Assembly (NCBI GenBank): GCA_029937975.1
Contig: JAPYOW010000018.1
Span: 1 to 34,550 of the forward strand
Reading direction: 5' to 3'
Length of the DNA: 34,550 nt
Origin: Methylococcaceae bacterium
Lineage (GTDB): Bacteria > Pseudomonadota > Gammaproteobacteria > Methylococcales > Methylomonadaceae
Shown here: positions 24,078 through 33,707 of the stretch, one piece after another
How positions within the stretch are numbered: position 1 is the first letter of the stretch
How the letters are laid out: each line of letters begins with the position of its first letter
Translations under genes and position numbers: made by a program
The notes under the pieces: generated by a model
Told to the model about the DNA's origin: nothing
What the model saw: the letters and a program-made list of their open reading frames with translations, nothing else
Database searches by the model: none

Positions 24078-24116
24078 CCCCTGTTGCAGCAGACCTCTAC
24101 TGCAACAGGGTTTAAT
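24078..24116 (+). terminator. Terminator of cysI-DUF934
   Basis: CCCTGTTGCAG (24079-24089) and CTGCAACAGGG (24100-24110) form a perfect 11-bp stem with a 10-base loop, followed by TTTAATT. It lies 10 bases past the DUF934 stop and just before the convergent ubiX stop. Confidence 0.75.
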
Positions 24117-24691
24117 TACAAGCCGCCCCAAGGCGTAAACAAACCCTCGACATTGACCCCAAACATATCCAATACCCGGCCAACACCCTCATCGACCATG
24201 GCCATAATTGAATCTGATTTACTATAAAACGCAGGCATGGGCGGAAAGATAATCCCCCCCATCTCTGTGACACTGGCCATATTACGAATATGCGCCAAAT
24301 TCAACGGTGTTTCACGCGGCATAATCACTACTCGCCGTCGTTCTTTCAATGCCACATCCGCAGATCGGGAAATCAGGTTATCTCCATAACCATGGGCAAC
24401 CGCCGACAATGTCTTCATGGAACACGGTGCAATAATAACCCCTTCGGTTTTAAATGATCCACTGGCAATACTGGCAGCTATGTCATTAACCCCATGCACG
24501 ACATCCGCCAAGGCATATAATTCAGCCCGCTCCATCCCAATTTCATACTTTAAATTCACCAAACCGGCGGATGAAATAACTAAATGCGCTTCCCAGTCCT
24601 CCTGTTTTTGTAATATTTGCAACATTCTGACGCCATAAATAGCACCGGTTGCTCCCGTCATCGCAATAACTATTCTCTTTTTTTGGTTCAT
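24116..24691 (-). CDS. ubiX: Flavin prenyltransferase UbiX
   Basis: Makes prenylated FMN, the cofactor of the UbiD decarboxylase in ubiquinone synthesis. The 191 residues begin RIVIAMTGATGAIYG, the FMN-binding start of the family. They continue with FKTEGVIIAPCSMKTLSAVA, the phosphate-binding ERRRVVIMPRETPLN, and a C-terminal IIFPPMPAFYSKSDSI with the conserved Pro and Tyr. ATG 24691 fits the family start; an in-frame GTG at 24715 adds 8 residues. Confidence 0.94.
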   Translation of the reverse strand: MNQKKRIVIAMTGATGAIYGVRMLQILQKQEDWEAHLVISSAGLVNLKYEIGMERAELYALADVVHGVNDIAASIASGSFKTEGVIIAPCSMKTLSAVAHGYGDNLISRSADVALKERRRVVIMPRETPLNLAHIRNMASVTEMGGIIFPPMPAFYSKSDSIMAMVDEGVGRVLDMFGVNVEGLFTPWGGL

Positions 24692-24726
24692 ATCACTACA
24701 TTCATCAATAACCACTCATCTAGCCA

Positions 24727-25680
24727 TCATTGTACCAGTTCTAACATGCTATCCGCTGCATCCACCAAGGCATTGATCATCTCTTCACCACTGGCAATAT
24801 GTCCTGAACCAGCTAACACCTTAAATTCGGCATGGGGTAACTGTTCAGACAAGCTGAGTCCGGCGGCCATGGGACAGACCAAATCATGACGCCCATGCAC
24901 AATAACCGCAGGAATATCTGTTATCCCTGCACAATTTTCCAGCACGTGATTTTCCTCCATAAAATAATGGTTTTCCGCATAATGTAATTCCATTTGCACT
25001 TGTTTCAGCATTTTTTCAGACACCTGTGATACTTGATCATCCGCCTGAAAATCCCCCATCAATGCAACCTGCCCGCCCCAGTCTATCCAGGCTTTTGCCA
25101 CCCGTCTTTGCGTCAATTCATCCGCGGAAAACACAGCATCATACAATATACTGACAATATCTTTCCCCGATTGCGAAGGAACACTGCCTACCAACTGCCG
25201 CCATTTTTCCGGGTATATGCAAGCCACCCCGCCTTCTTTGACAAACCAATCCATATCTTGCTGCCGCGCCAGAAAAACACCTCGCATCACCATGCCCAGG
25301 ACTTTATCGCTATGTTGCTGAGCATATAACAACGTGAGCGTACTGCCCCAGGAGCCACCAAATACCACCCACTTTTCAATATGCAGGTGCTGTCTGATAC
25401 GTTCCATATCTTCCAGCAAATATTGCGTGGTGTTATTTTTCAACTCGCCAAAAGGCTTTGATTGTCCGCAGCCGCGCTGATCCATCAAAATAATATGATA
25501 TTTGCCGGGATTAAAAAAACAGCGATGACTGGGTTTGGTGCCTGAACAAGGCCCACCATGGAGAAAAATGACCGGAATACCCTCTGGGTTGCCGGATTGT
25601 TCCACATAAACGGAATGCGCACTCTCCGTTGGCAGATAAAAATGATGGAAGGGTTCTATGTCTGGATAGAGAGATTTCAT
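24727..25680 (-). CDS. pip: Proline iminopeptidase (alpha/beta hydrolase)
   Basis: Releases N-terminal proline from peptides. The 317 residues belong to peptidase family S33. The nucleophile elbow is GGSWGSTL, DQRGCGQS and LLEDMERIRQHL are typical of bacterial Pip, and HGRHD and GSGH carry the probable acid and His. The oxyanion motif, usually HGGPG, is HGGPC here. The ATG at 25680 is clear. The gene follows the MCE operon on the same strand, after a possible weak terminator. Confidence 0.9.
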   Translation of the reverse strand: MKSLYPDIEPFHHFYLPTESAHSVYVEQSGNPEGIPVIFLHGGPCSGTKPSHRCFFNPGKYHIILMDQRGCGQSKPFGELKNNTTQYLLEDMERIRQHLHIEKWVVFGGSWGSTLTLLYAQQHSDKVLGMVMRGVFLARQQDMDWFVKEGGVACIYPEKWRQLVGSVPSQSGKDIVSILYDAVFSADELTQRRVAKAWIDWGGQVALMGDFQADDQVSQVSEKMLKQVQMELHYAENHYFMEENHVLENCAGITDIPAVIVHGRHDLVCPMAAGLSLSEQLPHAEFKVLAGSGHIASGEEMINALVDAADSMLELVQ

Positions 25681-25745: not shown

Positions 25746-26615
25746 TTACTGTTTTACCGGCGCCAGCAGGTCAGTCATCTGCTTGACTTTTTCATCATCC
25801 CCCAGCAAATGATAAACAGCCCTGGAACGCGTTAAATATTCTTGTGCATCCTGCCAACGCTGCGAAGCTTGATAATATTGCGCCAATTCTAGCAATGTCA
25901 CCGCAATACCCACGCGTGACAGCCCTTGCTTATACAACAACAGCGCCTGTTGCAGTTTTGACTCAGCATCTGCAGCTGCGCCCTGTTGCAACAATAAATC
26001 TGCCTGGAAACGCAGCAAACGCGCCTGCCTATCCCTATTGTTATGGGCTGTCTGCTTTAGGGCATGAGCATAGCGTTGTACCCACAAGAGCTCATCCTGC
26101 TTGCGCCAAAAAGCCAGCTTAACTTGACTGGCAATCGCCGCTATCTGGGTATTATCGGGAACAGAAACAGCCCTGACTCCCTTAAAGACAGGTAAAATTT
26201 CACGCAGCCTATGCGCAGCCTCAGCCCACTGTTTTTGCTGCAATGCCAGCCGCCCATAAAGCAGGCTGATACGCGGCTGATAGTGCTGAAAAAAATCATC
26301 TGTTGCAATCCTGCCCGCCAGGGTTAAATAGTGCTTCGCCGCTGCATCGTCATGTTGGGCTAAGGCGACTTCTGCCAGATTAATGCTGCTAAGCAAAACG
26401 CCTTCCTGATCATCTACTCCCTGATAAAGCAATAATGCTTTATTAAAAAAATGTTGCGCTGACCTCCATTCCGCATCGCCATAAGCTTGCAGCCCCGCCC
26501 TGCTGTATTCTTCCGCATCAATTAACACGGCGGGTCTACGCACGGCCTCAGCCCCACAGCCGGTGAGCAACAGGCCCATGATAAGAAAAAACACACGGCA
26601 ATAAGGCCTATTCAT
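25746..26615 (-). CDS. TPR-like lipoprotein of the MCE operon
   Basis: A 289-residue predicted lipoprotein: a signal helix is followed by the lipobox LLLTGC, with Cys20 and Gly at +2, which favours outer-membrane sorting. The rest is alpha-helical with TPR-like repeats, for example AGLQAYGDAEWRSAQHFFNKAL, GRLALQQKQWAEAAHRL and LAQYYQASQRWQDAQEYL. It overlaps the MCE gene by 8 bases and therefore belongs to that operon. Known MCE systems often include a lipoprotein (PqiC type), but this one is TPR-like and not PqiC-like by eye. A role in linking the MCE protein to the outer membrane is inference. Confidence 0.7.
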   Translation of the reverse strand: MNRPYCRVFFLIMGLLLTGCGAEAVRRPAVLIDAEEYSRAGLQAYGDAEWRSAQHFFNKALLLYQGVDDQEGVLLSSINLAEVALAQHDDAAAKHYLTLAGRIATDDFFQHYQPRISLLYGRLALQQKQWAEAAHRLREILPVFKGVRAVSVPDNTQIAAIASQVKLAFWRKQDELLWVQRYAHALKQTAHNNRDRQARLLRFQADLLLQQGAAADAESKLQQALLLYKQGLSRVGIAVTLLELAQYYQASQRWQDAQEYLTRSRAVYHLLGDDEKVKQMTDLLAPVKQ

Positions 26616-27645: not shown

Positions 27646-28374
27646 CTACAAAACACTGAGCAAGTCCTGAACATCAGGATCTTCCGTCTGGGTAAATGAT
27701 CGCCAGCCATTGAATGTGATAATTTTATGCTCTGAAATAAAAATAATCTGATCGGCATGCTGTTCTAGAAAATGAATGTACTGCAGCCCGCCAATCATAC
27801 AAACAGCACGATGCTGTGGATACTTACCCAACAATCTGCCCATTTTTTCACGTTCTTTTGCCCCCAGGTCATTAAACGGCACATCCATAATCAACAATGC
27901 AGGATCCAGAATCAAAGCACGCGCCAAAGCAAGCTGTGACTTCTGAAAGCTACTCAACTGTGCAGGAAATGCAGTAAACTCAAATTCACAGTTTAATTCG
28001 CGCAACAGTGCCTGTGCCTTATCCAGCGTTTCCTGAAACGGCCTCTTAGCATGATAAAGTGCGGGCAACATCACATTCATTAACCCATGTTGAGTCGATT
28101 GCAAGGATGCCGTTCCAGAAAGATAGCCTATCTGACTGCGTAACTTTCGCCACTGCAGTAGATTTAATGCTGAAATTGTTTGGCCCAAAACATCTACTTC
28201 ACCGGCTAGCGGTCGATAAATACCCGCCAGCATCAATAAATATGCCCTTAATTGTGCCCGATAAGGGCCGACCAGACAAGTCAGACCCACCTCCGCTATC
28301 TGACAACTCAAAGCAGGGAACAGCAGTTCACTGCCTTCGGCATAAGGTATGGCGTCATGCGCCCTGACAGTCAT
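27646..28374 (-). CDS. Degenerate ABC ATPase homologue (MlaF-like pseudo-ATPase)
   Basis: A 242-residue protein with the overall ABC nucleotide-binding domain order, placed where MlaF belongs. Its catalytic motifs are changed. Walker A is GPYRAQLR (36-43), so the Gly, Lys and Ser/Thr positions hold Arg, Gln, Leu and Arg. The Q-loop region reads IGYLSGTA. The signature is LSSFQ (139-143) in place of LSGGQ. Walker B LLIMDVPF has Val164 for the catalytic Glu, and the H-loop His position is Gly194. The frame is open and the fold-defining hydrophobic strands remain, so this is not simple decay. ATP hydrolysis is very unlikely; a structural role with the permease is inferred. ATG 28374 is used; GTG 28395, overlapping the permease stop as GTGA, is an alternative. 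Confidence 0.75.
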   Translation of the reverse strand: MTVRAHDAIPYAEGSELLFPALSCQIAEVGLTCLVGPYRAQLRAYLLMLAGIYRPLAGEVDVLGQTISALNLLQWRKLRSQIGYLSGTASLQSTQHGLMNVMLPALYHAKRPFQETLDKAQALLRELNCEFEFTAFPAQLSSFQKSQLALARALILDPALLIMDVPFNDLGAKEREKMGRLLGKYPQHRAVCMIGGLQYIHFLEQHADQIIFISEHKIITFNGWRSFTQTEDPDVQDLLSVL

Positions 28375-28391
28375 TGTATTCGCCACCGGAT

Positions 28392-29177
28392 TCACAAGGT
28401 AAAAATAATAAAATAGCCATCTGCAATAAATAAAAACACCAAACACCTGACCACCGCTTTCTGCATTTGTTCAGAAACCAGTACAGATGATTTATCAATA
28501 AGCAGTCCATGAAAGCAAGCGATGGTGCCTATGATCAAGCCAAAAAATATATTTTTGAGCATAAACCTCAAAACGCCATTGAGACTGATCATACTCAATA
28601 GCTCTGTCAATGATTTCTGCGCCGAGAAATCAAAGAAAAAGGCGCTAAAAAACACACCGCTCAAAATCATCAGCGCCGTAAAGTAATAGGCTAACGCCAC
28701 CTGACTAATGACCATACTCAATAACCGGGGAATGACAAAATAATCATTAACGTCAATGCCCATATATTCCAATGGCTCAATTTCCCCCTCCATACGGGTA
28801 TTACCCAGATCAACAACTATGGCAGAACAAGAACGCAGGACCAGAATAAAACCGGTAATCAAAGGGCCCATTTCACTTAACAACAGACGGGCAATAATTT
28901 CGATAAGATCATTATTACCCGTTAATGACTGCATAATATAAATCAACTGCGAAGTCACGCCAATGCCCATAAACAAGGCCAGCAACGATATGATCGCTAT
29001 CGCATTAATGCCGATTAAAATAAGCTGATCCAGAACAATTAAATAGACCGCCCGATTCAGCACATTGCGATGCGGCTGCCAAACCGACACGGCATGAACC
29101 AAAAAACAGACCAAGTCAATAATATAAAACACCAGGTCGATACACTGCCGGCCTAGCCAGGCAAAAAAAATGTTCAT
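28392..29177 (-). CDS. MlaE-type MCE transporter permease
   Basis: A 261-residue integral membrane protein of the MlaE family, with an amphipathic start helix (FFAWLGRQCIDLV) and about five transmembrane segments. The coupling-helix region EPLEYMGIDVNDYFVIPR, which contacts the ATPase in Mla systems, is retained, as is LLSEMGPLITGFILVLRS. ATG 29177 fits the family start. A longer frame opens at 29261, but it would run through the 18-bp palindrome and adds non-conserved residues. It is the first gene of the MCE operon. Confidence 0.85.
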   Translation of the reverse strand: MNIFFAWLGRQCIDLVFYIIDLVCFLVHAVSVWQPHRNVLNRAVYLIVLDQLILIGINAIAIISLLALFMGIGVTSQLIYIMQSLTGNNDLIEIIARLLLSEMGPLITGFILVLRSCSAIVVDLGNTRMEGEIEPLEYMGIDVNDYFVIPRLLSMVISQVALAYYFTALMILSGVFFSAFFFDFSAQKSLTELLSMISLNGVLRFMLKNIFFGLIIGTIACFHGLLIDKSSVLVSEQMQKAVVRCLVFLFIADGYFIIFTL

Positions 29178-29433: not shown

Positions 29434-31482
29434 TCAACGCCATAAGCCAATTAAAACAGGAATAACAGCCACTAACAATAAAGTTGTGGCCATTGTGGCC
29501 ATCGGCAATAATATTTTTTCATGTCGATACCAAAAATGGCCCTCCTTTAACACCGATTTTGCCACCTCTTCATGCCCCACCATTTGTCGCGTCAGCAAAT
29601 GATTAAGTGCCACAGGAGGGGTCAGATAGCCCAGTTCAAAAGCTACCAGTGCAATCATCCAGAAGTGCACCGGATCAATACCATTATTATAGGCAATCTG
29701 GGCGAGCGTCCCGGTCACTAAAACTACCGCGCCAAATGGGTCCATAATCATGCCGATAGCCACCAAAGCCAGCCCCAGAAAACTTAAGGTCAGCCAGACC
29801 GATGAGAAGCTAGTCGGGATGTCACTTAACAAACCTGCACGTTCGATCACCCCGCCCATCACAAAGGAAAGTGCCATTAGCATTAACAACGCACCGATAT
29901 GAACACTGGCCTGCGATGAGGCCATCCTGATGGAACATTCAAAGCCTGAACTTGAGTCCTGCCTTTTGCCCTGCCGCCGCCAGGGATGATTCCAGTTTTC
30001 GTAAACAATTAAGCCCAAAATAATCACAGGTAACATAATAGGGGCTGAAAATTCATCCACCCCCACATTCAGGCCGTAGCGATAGATAGCAACTATTACC
30101 ACCACCACGCCGACATAAGGTAACAACGGCAGCAAGGCCCGTGCAGAGGGTCTCAATGCTTCATGCACCGGTGCTATATGTAACTTTTCACGTTTGCTCA
30201 GCCATACAAAAACAAAAAAAACAACGACTGTGGTCATAAAGGTTTTCAAGCCCCAGTTAAACAGCTGGTCGGTGACCACTTCTTTATTCAGGGCGGCGAT
30301 CAGCACCACGAGTAGGCATGGACGTAATACCACGCCGGCACTGCCCGTCATTGCCGTGGTTGCCAATGCCATTTGCCGGCGGGCACCGGCCTGCATCAAT
30401 TGCTCGTAAACAATGGCGCCCATGGCAATAATAATAATGCCTGAAGCACCAGTATAGGCGGTAGGCAAAGCCATGACCAGAATAGCCACAACGGCTAATA
30501 ATTCAGCGGATAGTCGCCAGGGGGTAAAAACCTTAAAGATCAATGTCCCTAATTGCGTGGTTTTTAACAACATTCCCACCCAGATATACAGACCGATATT
30601 AAGAAACAAGCCGGCCTGATCGATTAATAAACTAAAAAATATCGCTAAACCAGCCCAATGCCCCTCTATCAGAAAAAAATAATTGGCGGCAAAGCCGGCC
30701 ATAAAAACATAGAGAGGAACAGCCAACAAGGCATGAAACCAACGCCCGCCCGCTTTAAATGGCTGTTTTGGCCGCAATAACTGATATAAATTGATAGCTA
30801 TCAGCGCAGCAAAGCCGAGTATTAATAGCCAATAGACCCCCGGGTGCTCAACCGTGCTTGCCGATTGATACATACTTTTTCTATAATCCCAGGCCGATAC
30901 CAGTAATAAACCATTGGCCAGAGCTTGCGCCATCGTGGAAACAACATGATCATGGCGGGTGATAATGGGCTTAAAAGCAATATGTTGCTGCTTTAAGGTG
31001 CAGGTCATGGCACAAATAAAAAGCATTAACAATAAAATCAAACGCTGCATTTCAAAGGCGTACAGACTGAAAAAAGCAATGCCGGTTTCCAGAGTACGGA
31101 AAACCACCACCGCCGAGGTGATTCTTAGCTGATTTTGTTGCGCCAGTTGATGCTTATCACTGCAAAGCTGGCGATTGCTTTGCAATGATTCTCGGGCTGC
31201 CTGTGGATTAAAAGGTTCACTTTCAAACAAGGCATCCAATTCATCCAGCTGTTCAGCTTCGGCGGCAAGCCTGACTAATTCACGGGCAATATCCGGATTG
31301 GGATTACAGCCAGGGGTCGGCATATCCGCTCTTAGCATAAAGTAATCCTGCCAGAAATATTCGCCCACATGCAGTAGCCGGCTATGGATTTGTTCCGCAT
31401 TGCCAGCCAGCACCACGGTCAATAACAGGATAAAAACCGGTAATGAACACATCCATTCCTGCAGGCTGCGCAACCTCAGCAT
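29434..31482 (-). CDS. Fused TRAP transporter permease (DctQ-DctM, TatQM-like)
   Basis: A 682-residue inner-membrane permease that moves solutes from a periplasmic binding protein using an ion gradient. The first ~200 residues hold a hydrophobic helix and a periplasmic stretch with ADMPTPGCNPNPDI, followed by more helices, probably the small (Q) subunit part. The rest is a DctM-like large subunit with TGASGIIIIAMGAIVYE, TGSAGVVLRPCLLVVLI and, near the end, LTPPVALNHLLTRQM. Fusion of Q and M matches Treponema TatQM. ATG 31482 is used; in-frame TTG 31569 gives 711 residues with a Gly/Cys-rich extension. Confidence 0.82.
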   Translation of the reverse strand: MLRLRSLQEWMCSLPVFILLLTVVLAGNAEQIHSRLLHVGEYFWQDYFMLRADMPTPGCNPNPDIARELVRLAAEAEQLDELDALFESEPFNPQAARESLQSNRQLCSDKHQLAQQNQLRITSAVVVFRTLETGIAFFSLYAFEMQRLILLLMLFICAMTCTLKQQHIAFKPIITRHDHVVSTMAQALANGLLLVSAWDYRKSMYQSASTVEHPGVYWLLILGFAALIAINLYQLLRPKQPFKAGGRWFHALLAVPLYVFMAGFAANYFFLIEGHWAGLAIFFSLLIDQAGLFLNIGLYIWVGMLLKTTQLGTLIFKVFTPWRLSAELLAVVAILVMALPTAYTGASGIIIIAMGAIVYEQLMQAGARRQMALATTAMTGSAGVVLRPCLLVVLIAALNKEVVTDQLFNWGLKTFMTTVVVFFVFVWLSKREKLHIAPVHEALRPSARALLPLLPYVGVVVVIVAIYRYGLNVGVDEFSAPIMLPVIILGLIVYENWNHPWRRQGKRQDSSSGFECSIRMASSQASVHIGALLMLMALSFVMGGVIERAGLLSDIPTSFSSVWLTLSFLGLALVAIGMIMDPFGAVVLVTGTLAQIAYNNGIDPVHFWMIALVAFELGYLTPPVALNHLLTRQMVGHEEVAKSVLKEGHFWYRHEKILLPMATMATTLLLVAVIPVLIGLWR

Positions 31483-31597
31483 GTGCTTACCCAGGCTGCA
31501 GCAACCGCCATGGCCGCCATCCAGCGACCGCCAAAATGCCCCAAGACGATGAGACTCAAACACTGACAAATGCCGTTTCGGGTGTTATTCATGCCGC

Positions 31598-32611
31598 TTA
31601 TTCTTTATCTGCCGCCGTACATTCAGACTGCTCGGGGGCTTTCTTGCATCGCAGCATTCGCATCAGTTTCAACATTTTGCCGTGATAAATACCTTTATCT
31701 CTTAATCTGATTCTCGATTGCCTAAAAACCTCACGATATTCTGGTTTATCCGCTTCCGGAATGGCCACCCATAATTTGGCCGGGATTCTGCTTTCATATT
31801 TTTTGACTGATTCCATCCCCGCATCAAACCTCCCTAAAACATAGTCTCTCGACTTTTGCCCATAACCTTCAGGGAATTGATCTTTGCGAATCAGCATTTG
31901 CATGGTCAACTGCGCCAGAGAAAAATCAATCACCCCGCCATTAGGCTGCAGTCCTTTATATAACTCCATGGCTTCATACACAATGGCCGGACCGAAAGCG
32001 ATATCAACAGAGCCATTATTAAACTTGCTGTACATAGTGGCAATGGAACTGCCTACTGCAGAGCCACCAATGAAAGCCACCATTTCCTGTTGTGCCTGAT
32101 CCGAATCTAAAATAGCAATGCGTTTACCGGCTAATTCACCCACGGTATCAATCGTACGGTCATTAACAAACATATAGGCTGTACCCGCCGGGGAAATACC
32201 CACGACCTCATACATCTCACTCAGCATCAGTTTTGCCGCTTTTTTTGAACTCAGTGTGGTGATCACCGATTTTAAATGCTGATACGATGGCACAGCACCT
32301 ATTGCATCCAGACTGCCGGTAAAGGCATTAAACTGCCGGGCTCTAATGCCGGTAAAAATCACCGCATCACAAAGTCCGGCTTTAAAATCTTCAGCCGCTA
32401 CGCGTTCATTGGTATAGGGCTTAAGATCCAGCGCCACACCCCAGTTTAATGCCGCTATTTTATAATCTTTCATATAAGAAAAAACCGGGCCGTTGGCGCC
32501 CAGCAAGTCAAACACGCACATCTTTTTATGCATGGCTAACACCGTATTACTGCTGAATAATAACACCAACAGCAATACCCCTGAAGTGGATAAACCCTTG
32601 CCGCTCATCAT
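31598..32611 (-). CDS. Periplasmic solute-binding protein of AdeT/TatP type
   Basis: A 337-residue exported protein: the signal peptide ends at VLA (residue 26). The mature part has a TRAP-receptor-like layout with KMCVFDLLGANGPV, YTNERVAAEDFKAGLCDA and GIRARQFNAFTGSLDAIGA. These resemble the putative solute-binding AdeT1/AdeT2 proteins of Acinetobacter as I remember them. It lies directly upstream of the TRAP permease, which fits a P-component. The ligand is unknown. AdeT names in databases suggest drug efflux, but nothing here supports that. Tandem ATG codons at 32611 follow GACGG. Confidence 0.8.
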   Translation of the reverse strand: MMSGKGLSTSGVLLLVLLFSSNTVLAMHKKMCVFDLLGANGPVFSYMKDYKIAALNWGVALDLKPYTNERVAAEDFKAGLCDAVIFTGIRARQFNAFTGSLDAIGAVPSYQHLKSVITTLSSKKAAKLMLSEMYEVVGISPAGTAYMFVNDRTIDTVGELAGKRIAILDSDQAQQEMVAFIGGSAVGSSIATMYSKFNNGSVDIAFGPAIVYEAMELYKGLQPNGGVIDFSLAQLTMQMLIRKDQFPEGYGQKSRDYVLGRFDAGMESVKKYESRIPAKLWVAIPEADKPEYREVFRQSRIRLRDKGIYHGKMLKLMRMLRCKKAPEQSECTAADKE

Positions 32612-32687
32612 CCGTCACTACCTTGCTCAATTGATAAAAATATCCCGGTCATTGCATCGGTTTAAATTAACTATTTAAAAACACTGC

Positions 32688-33707
32688 TCAAAGAATATCA
32701 TCAATCTCGATAATATCAATATGTTCTACCGGGTCATCCCAAAAAGAGCCCATTTCACCTATGGGGGTACGACTGCCTGTGGCTGCCGTCCACAAGCGGT
32801 CAGAAAATTGTTGCATTTGTAAATAGGCCATCTGATTGAGTAATTGATAGCCTGGATGCTCCGTGCGGCTGATCTTCGCCTGACTCTGCTGACGAATGAT
32901 TTGTTTTACTTTTTCGGTATGGCCCAGCCCTGAATGTACTTGCACCGCCAACACATGACTGATGGTTATGCCTTGTTGGCTACCGGTTTGCAAGGCCTGA
33001 TGCAGTATCTGCATCGGCTGTTTATCTGCCGGTTGATGCCCCGGAATGCTTAACCACAGTGATGCCTGAATTGCCTCGGGGACGCCCCACCATTTATCAT
33101 TGTTTAAACACCTGACCGCCCGGCCAATTTTTGCGCCGATATCCAAAGGGACATGCGCATCTCCGGCAGAAGCAATATCATTCAATAATGCCTGTAAGCC
33201 ACTGATCAGTCCCATTAACCAGTAAAACTCTGCATTATCGTTAGTTAACAAAGGACACTCACCGCCGGGTTCAGCATACCTTAAAGCTAAAGCCTTATAG
33301 CCCTGCCATTGTGTGTGTGCGACCTGACTGAGATAACGTTGCTGGGCAATCCGTGCATCGCGCGCGGCTACAGGATTACCGGCATACACAGCCCGTAGAT
33401 AGCGCAGTTCCTCTTCCCATGCCTTAAATTCAGTACAGCTGCCGGCCATTAAATAAAACAGAATAGCCAGCTGATCGGGTGAGTGGCTGACGCGGGAAAA
33501 ACTGAACAGAAAGGGGGCAAACGATTCCACCATGGCACAACTAAAGTTTATATCCCCAGTGGCCAGGATATAAGGCACCGCTTCATCTTCCGCATAGGCA
33601 ATCAAGGTATTCCCCGTGCCTTTATACAGCAGGCTACAGCCGCTTAACAGCACAGCCCACAGCCCTAAAAAAATCAGTGCAACATACGCTCTTGGTTTCT
33701 TCAACAT
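32688..33707 (-). CDS. TRAP T-component-like lipoprotein (TatT-like)
   Basis: A 339-residue predicted lipoprotein with lipobox LLSGC (Cys24, Ser at +2). The remainder is all-helical with segments such as FLFSFSRVSHSPDQLAILFY, FYWLMGLISGLQALLNDIA and IHLGLGH-like VHSGLGHTEKVKQII. In Treponema, TatT is a TPR-like helical lipoprotein that partners TatP and is thought to bind hydrophobic ligand. Position upstream of the binding protein and the fused permease supports the same role here. AGGGGTGAT precedes the ATG. Assignment rests on context and general shape. Confidence 0.65.
   Translation of the reverse strand: MLKKPRAYVALIFLGLWAVLLSGCSLLYKGTGNTLIAYAEDEAVPYILATGDINFSCAMVESFAPFLFSFSRVSHSPDQLAILFYLMAGSCTEFKAWEEELRYLRAVYAGNPVAARDARIAQQRYLSQVAHTQWQGYKALALRYAEPGGECPLLTNDNAEFYWLMGLISGLQALLNDIASAGDAHVPLDIGAKIGRAVRCLNNDKWWGVPEAIQASLWLSIPGHQPADKQPMQILHQALQTGSQQGITISHVLAVQVHSGLGHTEKVKQIIRQQSQAKISRTEHPGYQLLNQMAYLQMQQFSDRLWTAATGSRTPIGEMGSFWDDPVEHIDIIEIDDIL

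Follow-up and report, generated by a model that had tools for sequence, protein, structure and literature searches.

An MlaE-MCE operon of Methylococcales encodes a conserved ABC protein without working catalytic motifs, a putative structural pseudo-ATPase

The analysed window, a stretch of 34,550 nucleotides of a Methylococcaceae bacterium, contains four genes arranged head to tail in a tight operon, encoding successively an MlaE-family permease, an ABC protein, an MCE protein and a TPR lipoprotein (Table 1). The three domain assignments to ABC_tran, MlaE PF02405 and MlaD PF02470 exceed the respective Pfam cut-offs (25, 22.5 and 25.1 bits). No Pfam family besides MlaE PF02405 was found in the window's membrane subunit, which is not of the LetA/PqiA type, and no second NBD gene occurs in the operon. 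The likely start of the ABC gene is a GTG at position 28395, which overlaps the stop of the permease gene as GTGA and has an equivalent in most orthologues; the alternative ATG at 28374 is less likely. From either start (249 or 242 aa), the full-length open frame proposed in the initial annotation of this DNA was recovered, and the domain scores and the lipobox agree with its view that the neighbouring genes are intact. In the MCE protein, a single MCE domain precedes a long, mainly helical region, and a WPLS at the C-terminus is conserved. The start of the TPR lipoprotein gene overlaps the stop of the MCE gene, and the gene is found at the same place in orthologous operons. The coupling region of the permease had been considered as retained: the cytoplasmic segment GEIEPLEYMGID, the putative coupling region, is indeed kept, and residues E132, L136 and G140 are near-invariant in the alignment of the permease family.

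Table 1. Genes of the operon in the window, in order of transcription
Product	Position	Strand	Features
MlaE-family permease, 261 aa	28392..29177	-	First operon gene; Pfam MlaE PF02405 147.8 bits
Pseudo-ATPase, full-length ABC NBD	27646..28395	-	Pfam ABC_tran 40.8 bits
Long MCE (MlaD-domain) protein, 340 aa	26608..27630	-	Pfam MlaD PF02470 40.2 bits
TPR lipoprotein	25746..26615	-	Pfam TPR_12 45.0 bits; lipobox LTGC

Upstream of the operon, on the minus strand (29434-33707), are the genes of a large TRAP-type permease (DctM), whose N-terminal part is long, and of an AdeT1/2-type solute-binding protein (PF19582, 302 bits). They are accompanied by a gene for a lipoprotein-like protein that has no NCBIfam match and whose homologue L037:7559-8566 has no Pfam match. 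This gene set adjoins the operon, in variable order, in only about 11 of the 15 genomes of the close clade defined below and is absent beside the others, so that the TRAP genes were dropped as a possible energy source of the operon. Downstream (24116-25680, minus strand) lie genes for a UbiX-like flavoprotein (Pfam Flavoprotein) and an alpha/beta hydrolase, a pair recurring near the operon in several relatives.

The ABC protein was compared by alignment with the intact MlaF encoded in the same genome, whose motifs read GPSGTGKTT, FQSG, LSGGM, YDEP and SHD; the corresponding positions are occupied by GPYRAQLRA, YLSGTAS, LSSFQ, MDVP and MIGGLQY, respectively. All five working-motif tests (Walker A GxxxxGK[ST], Asp-Glu, LSGGQ, Q-loop Gln and switch His) revealed an alteration, with loss of the Lys and Thr of Walker A, the Gln of the Q-loop, two glycines of the signature, the catalytic Glu and the switch His. 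The translation thus confirms what had been read from this DNA, namely a Walker A reduced to GPYRAQLR, a Val (codon GTG) instead of the Walker B Glu (LLIMDVPF), LSSFQ as signature, a Gly at the H-loop His position (CMIGGLQY, without any His in the switch region) and an altered Q-loop. The statement that every catalytic motif is lost is nevertheless slightly too strong, since this copy retains the Asp of Walker B and three residues of LSGGQ (L, S and Q). “ATP-binding protein” is a wrong annotation for such genes, which calls for caution among genome annotators.

Despite these changes, the NBD fold is retained in the predicted structure: AlphaFold2, with 15 sequences, modelled a full NBD (pLDDT 86.9, pTM 0.85), the best Foldseek match of which was the MceG chain of Mce1 (8fed, TM 0.88), followed closely by MlaF (6xgy, 6xbd). 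The TM values to MceG and MlaF are 0.84-0.89, and a second structure aligner gave Z values of 24-28 to many solved NBDs, MlaF included, with the caveat that a common fold is no proof of function. The prediction for the MCE protein (pLDDT 37) was too poor for use. The second mlaF that the initial annotation proposed to search for exists elsewhere in the genome, within an intact mlaFEDB displaying all motifs. The window ABC protein has no counterpart of the C-terminal handshake extension of MlaF, its end lying at the point where that extension would start, and reaches 38.7 bits with the MlaF model (NF008809 / PRK11831), below its cut-off of 441; LolD scores higher (62.6), also far below its own cut-off. 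In a tree of 21 representatives of the operon ABC proteins together with MlaF and other ABC proteins, the former constitute a clade (support 100/99) separate from the MlaF clade (100/99) and also from the remaining ABC proteins encoded in the window's genome. The tree and the NCBIfam scores rule out a decayed MlaF orthologue. The window protein is a member of a distinct ABC clade tied to this operon, described here for the first time with 47 sampled members. The literature searched, limited to open-licence papers, contained no description of an MlaF-type ABC protein devoid of the motifs.

Using the permease as a query, the family was found in 24 of 300 Methylococcales genomes besides that of the window, most of the genomes compared being metagenome assemblies. 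Among the named relatives are Methyloprofundus, the gill symbiont of Bathymodiolus platifrons, and metagenome-assembled methanotrophs from the deep sea or living as sponge symbionts. A close form of the protein, sharing 50-70% identity and the same operon, is present in seven of the eight other genomes of the window's genus and in several other genera, and a diverged form (about 30% identity) is encoded in a similar operon in further Methylococcales genomes. Both forms are devoid of the motifs in all cases, the close one with the consensus CLVGPHRxQLR, LNSFQR, LDVPFNDLGA and CMIGGLQYPRF. Recurrence of the same loss in more than 20 independent assemblies rules out a sequencing error. Two genomes harbor both pseudo-ABC operon subfamilies, G005 (L033, L042) and G251 (L094, L099). 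In a more distant Methylococcales (G095, L090:3827-4528, minus strand), the ABC protein represents an intermediate state, with Walker A (GPNSSGKS) and Walker B (VDEP) intact but signature and switch His missing; this short contig showed no MCE gene beside it.

Pairwise NG86 estimates of dN/dS between close-form copies of the ABC gene range from 0.06 to 0.18, about the same as those of the MCE gene (0.07-0.22), the permease giving 0.03-0.09. Many dS values are above 1, near saturation, and YN00 often failed, so that these ratios are rough; they are yet far from neutral. A scan of the close clade with windows of 9 residues (mean conservation 0.71) located the rebuilt catalytic loops among the most conserved parts of the protein (VCMIGGLQY 0.96, LTCLVGPYR 0.93 and DVPFNDLGA 0.92), together with the helix following the signature (LARALILDP 0.96) and the segment that docks on the permease (NVMLPALYH 0.95), the N-terminus being the least conserved. 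Such a pattern does not fit with decay, because a decaying NBD would not rebuild its loops and then fix them. The possibility that the gene is a decaying pseudogene finds some support in copies broken in certain lineages (G171, G156 and G634), but in the clade of the window the selection data contradict it, as do the appearance of new invariant residues and the about 24 Methylococcales copies that are open, full-length and conserved, and we regard it as scarcely tenable. Recent decay is ruled out by the low dN/dS and the conserved loss in more than 20 assemblies; the outcome that would have refuted the initial annotation, orthologues with normal motifs and relaxed selection in this genome, was not met, and the conservation of the motif loss among orthologues and the purifying selection that it had suggested verifying were both found.

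Concerning the broken copies, the ABC frame is interrupted on a Bathymodiolus symbiont contig (G171, L056/L100), G156 (L154) has a truncated permease with no ABC gene found, and the ABC gene is spread over two frames in G634 (L142); these cases may be decay or assembly errors.

The conservation of the rebuilt loops could alternatively reflect a regulatory role, the remodelled P-loop with its invariant Arg39 and Arg43 binding a different small molecule, or a lipid head group, to gate the permease. In close orthologues, R39, L42, R43 and the run CMIGGLQ show little or no variation, and the possibility that these loops bind another ligand counts against a purely structural role. These residues are, however, not shared by the diverged Methylococcales subfamily or by the other lineages, and such ligand sensing, which could fit the close clade only, appears improbable to us.

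Searches with the permease across the class, the phylum and several orders showed that the same operon is scattered among gammaproteobacterial lineages of several orders; one genome, G666, comes from the phylum draw and its class is not established. Among the 47 clade members sampled, LSGGQ is absent from every one covering this region, as is the Gln of the Q-loop. Eight members have an intact Walker A (G095, G340, G383, G666, G901, G906, G909 and G910), and seven of these also have the Asp-Glu and the switch His. Two others, G517 and G930, keep the Gly-Lys of Walker A and not the Thr/Ser, and their congener G931 has lost the lysine too. The docking segment N-x3-P-x2-YH, shared by MlaF, has its Asn and His invariant in 47/47 members. 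The simplest history is a loss of the signature and the Q-loop first, in the common ancestor, then later losses of Walker A, the catalytic Glu and the His. Walker A is claimed here to have been lost at least twice: its changes amount to two on the ABC tree and to at least four, through well-supported branches, on the permease tree, a count dependent on the tree; degenerate sequences may attract each other in the former. The MCE partners have N-terminal HYIHR-type and C-terminal WPLS-type motifs common to intact and degenerate lineages, indicating that the operon travels as a unit.

Four other genomes (G740, G330, G474 and G580) encode ordinary MlaF-type proteins, and no ABC match was seen beside the G586 permease. 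G509 and G231 (L149:4179-6746, plus strand; L155:5041-6377, minus strand), detected by the permease search, were excluded since they fall outside the ABC clade, the MCE protein of G509 also lacking the C-terminal motif of the clade. They carry another MlaE-ABC-MCE operon, whose ABC protein has neither signature nor switch His and, given its separate branch in the tree, possibly results from an independent loss in another MCE family.

The seven members combining Walker A, Asp-Glu and switch His suggest that ATP still matters in their lineages, which weighs against a scaffold function. They also leave some room for a non-canonical ATPase, in which ATP use would persist via unusual residues in the absence of the signature. 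The window copy keeps the Walker B Asp, but neither the Lys nor the Thr is left in its Walker A, and the catalytic Glu, Q-loop Gln and switch His are missing as well; this explanation is therefore considered very improbable.

Several known systems share parts of this organization. MlaFEDB of E. coli and A. baumannii associates an MlaE-type permease, an ABC protein of the same fold and an MCE protein; however, MlaF needs Walker A and B, both lost in the window ABC protein, which belongs to a separate clade without the MlaF C-terminal extension, and the window operon has a long MCE protein instead of the short MlaD and neither MlaB nor MlaC. One of the two sites of heterodimeric ABC exporters stays consensus, whereas both sites of a pseudo-NBD homodimer would be dead. 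These exporters likewise retain ABC domains with altered catalytic motifs at degenerate nucleotide-binding sites (PMC7756269). In the Brucella Mpc system (MpcEFDA), the permease, ABC protein, long MCE needle and lipoprotein are similarly encoded together with the lipoprotein gene last, but MpcF is described as an MlaF homologue that is well conserved, a STAS domain is present in MpcE, and MpcA is PqiC-like, not a TPR protein (PMC12436622). In Veillonella, MlaEFD likewise combines MlaE, an ABC protein and a long MCE protein in a minimal trans-envelope system; it differs by an mlaF close to that of model diderms, a beta-barrel at the MlaD end and its description as a three-gene system without the OM lipoprotein MlaA (PMC10665443). 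The long MCE protein and the lipoprotein of the window resemble such trans-envelope systems (PMC12436622, PMC10665443). LetAB and PqiABC work as MCE bridges without ATPase subunit, but LetA and PqiA are not MlaE permeases and these systems have no ABC protein at all. Mycobacterial Mce1/Mce4, with MceG as one ATPase for several MCE permeases, are related by the structural match reported above, but MceG is an active and required ATPase whereas the window operon itself encodes an inactive one.

The premise that Mla transporters need the ATPase activity of MlaF is supported by the failure of E. coli MlaF Walker A or B mutants to complement (PMC7367683), and the window system consequently cannot work as Mla does. 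The three options initially put forward, a borrowed ATPase, passive functioning or a scaffold, all still stand, and the evidence favours a scaffold with ATP-independent transport. We consider it reasonably probable that the gene encodes a conserved structural pseudo-ATPase, acting in an ATP-independent model with the MlaE permease and the long MCE bridge. In this model, ABC-type ATP binding and hydrolysis would be gone, with the NBD fold and the segment docking on the MlaE coupling helix kept. From the conservation of this segment and of the loops that would face the other NBD, a constitutive nucleotide-free pseudo-NBD dimer is inferred, probably forming the base beneath the MlaE dimer; with the signature lost in all covering members, neither composite ATP site of the dimer would be canonical. 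The MlaE dimer would carry a hexamer of the long MCE protein spanning the periplasm toward the TPR lipoprotein, whose outer-membrane location is inferred, as are the architecture and stoichiometry of the complex. The substrate, presumed to be lipid, might flow down its own gradient or be moved by a driver elsewhere in the envelope, as in the ATPase-less MCE bridges Let and Pqi (PMC12436622).

The main alternative to this structural role is that the cell's intact MlaF pairs with the pseudo-NBD or replaces it on the permease, in the same way that one ATPase is shared among several Mce permeases in mycobacteria (PMC9947336). Besides the intact mlaFEDB of the window's genome, an MlaF orthologue (E below 1e-70) was detected in 38 of the 43 operon-bearing genomes, and four of the remaining five are less than 85% complete; this co-occurrence is nevertheless expected regardless, most of these bacteria having Mla. 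In a heterodimer of MlaF and pseudo-NBD, one site would be without the signature and the other without Walker A, neither being canonical, and the absence of the handshake extension from the window ABC protein further disfavours such pairing. An MlaF homodimer would leave the pseudo-NBD useless, yet the latter is under purifying selection. A borrowed MlaF thus remains less likely and not excluded, and we retain it as an unlikely but serious possibility. The structural pseudo-ATPase, on its side, has no direct precedent among MCE systems for an NBD as pure scaffold, since MceG Walker B variants of M. tuberculosis failed to stabilise Mce1 and Mce4 (PMC9947336); that no complex was predicted and nothing measured also counts against it.

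At the scale of the family, we lean, with little more than even confidence, toward a gammaproteobacterial MCE family in which an ABC motor became, by steps and on more than one occasion, a structural subunit free of nucleotide, the MlaE-type permease becoming an ATP-independent lipid conduit. The need for ATP and the direction of MCE lipid flow represent a long-running question. With permease, bridge and NBD docking segment kept and catalysis removed in graded steps, this family constitutes a natural experiment, from lineages keeping Walker A/B and the His (G340, G383 and G666) to those keeping part of them (G095 and G517) and none (the window). It makes testable whether an MlaE-type permease works without hydrolysis and which roles NBDs have besides ATP hydrolysis. 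The maintenance of a dead motor under strong selection in dozens of relatives implies that the machine either runs without a motor of its own or uses this motor structurally.
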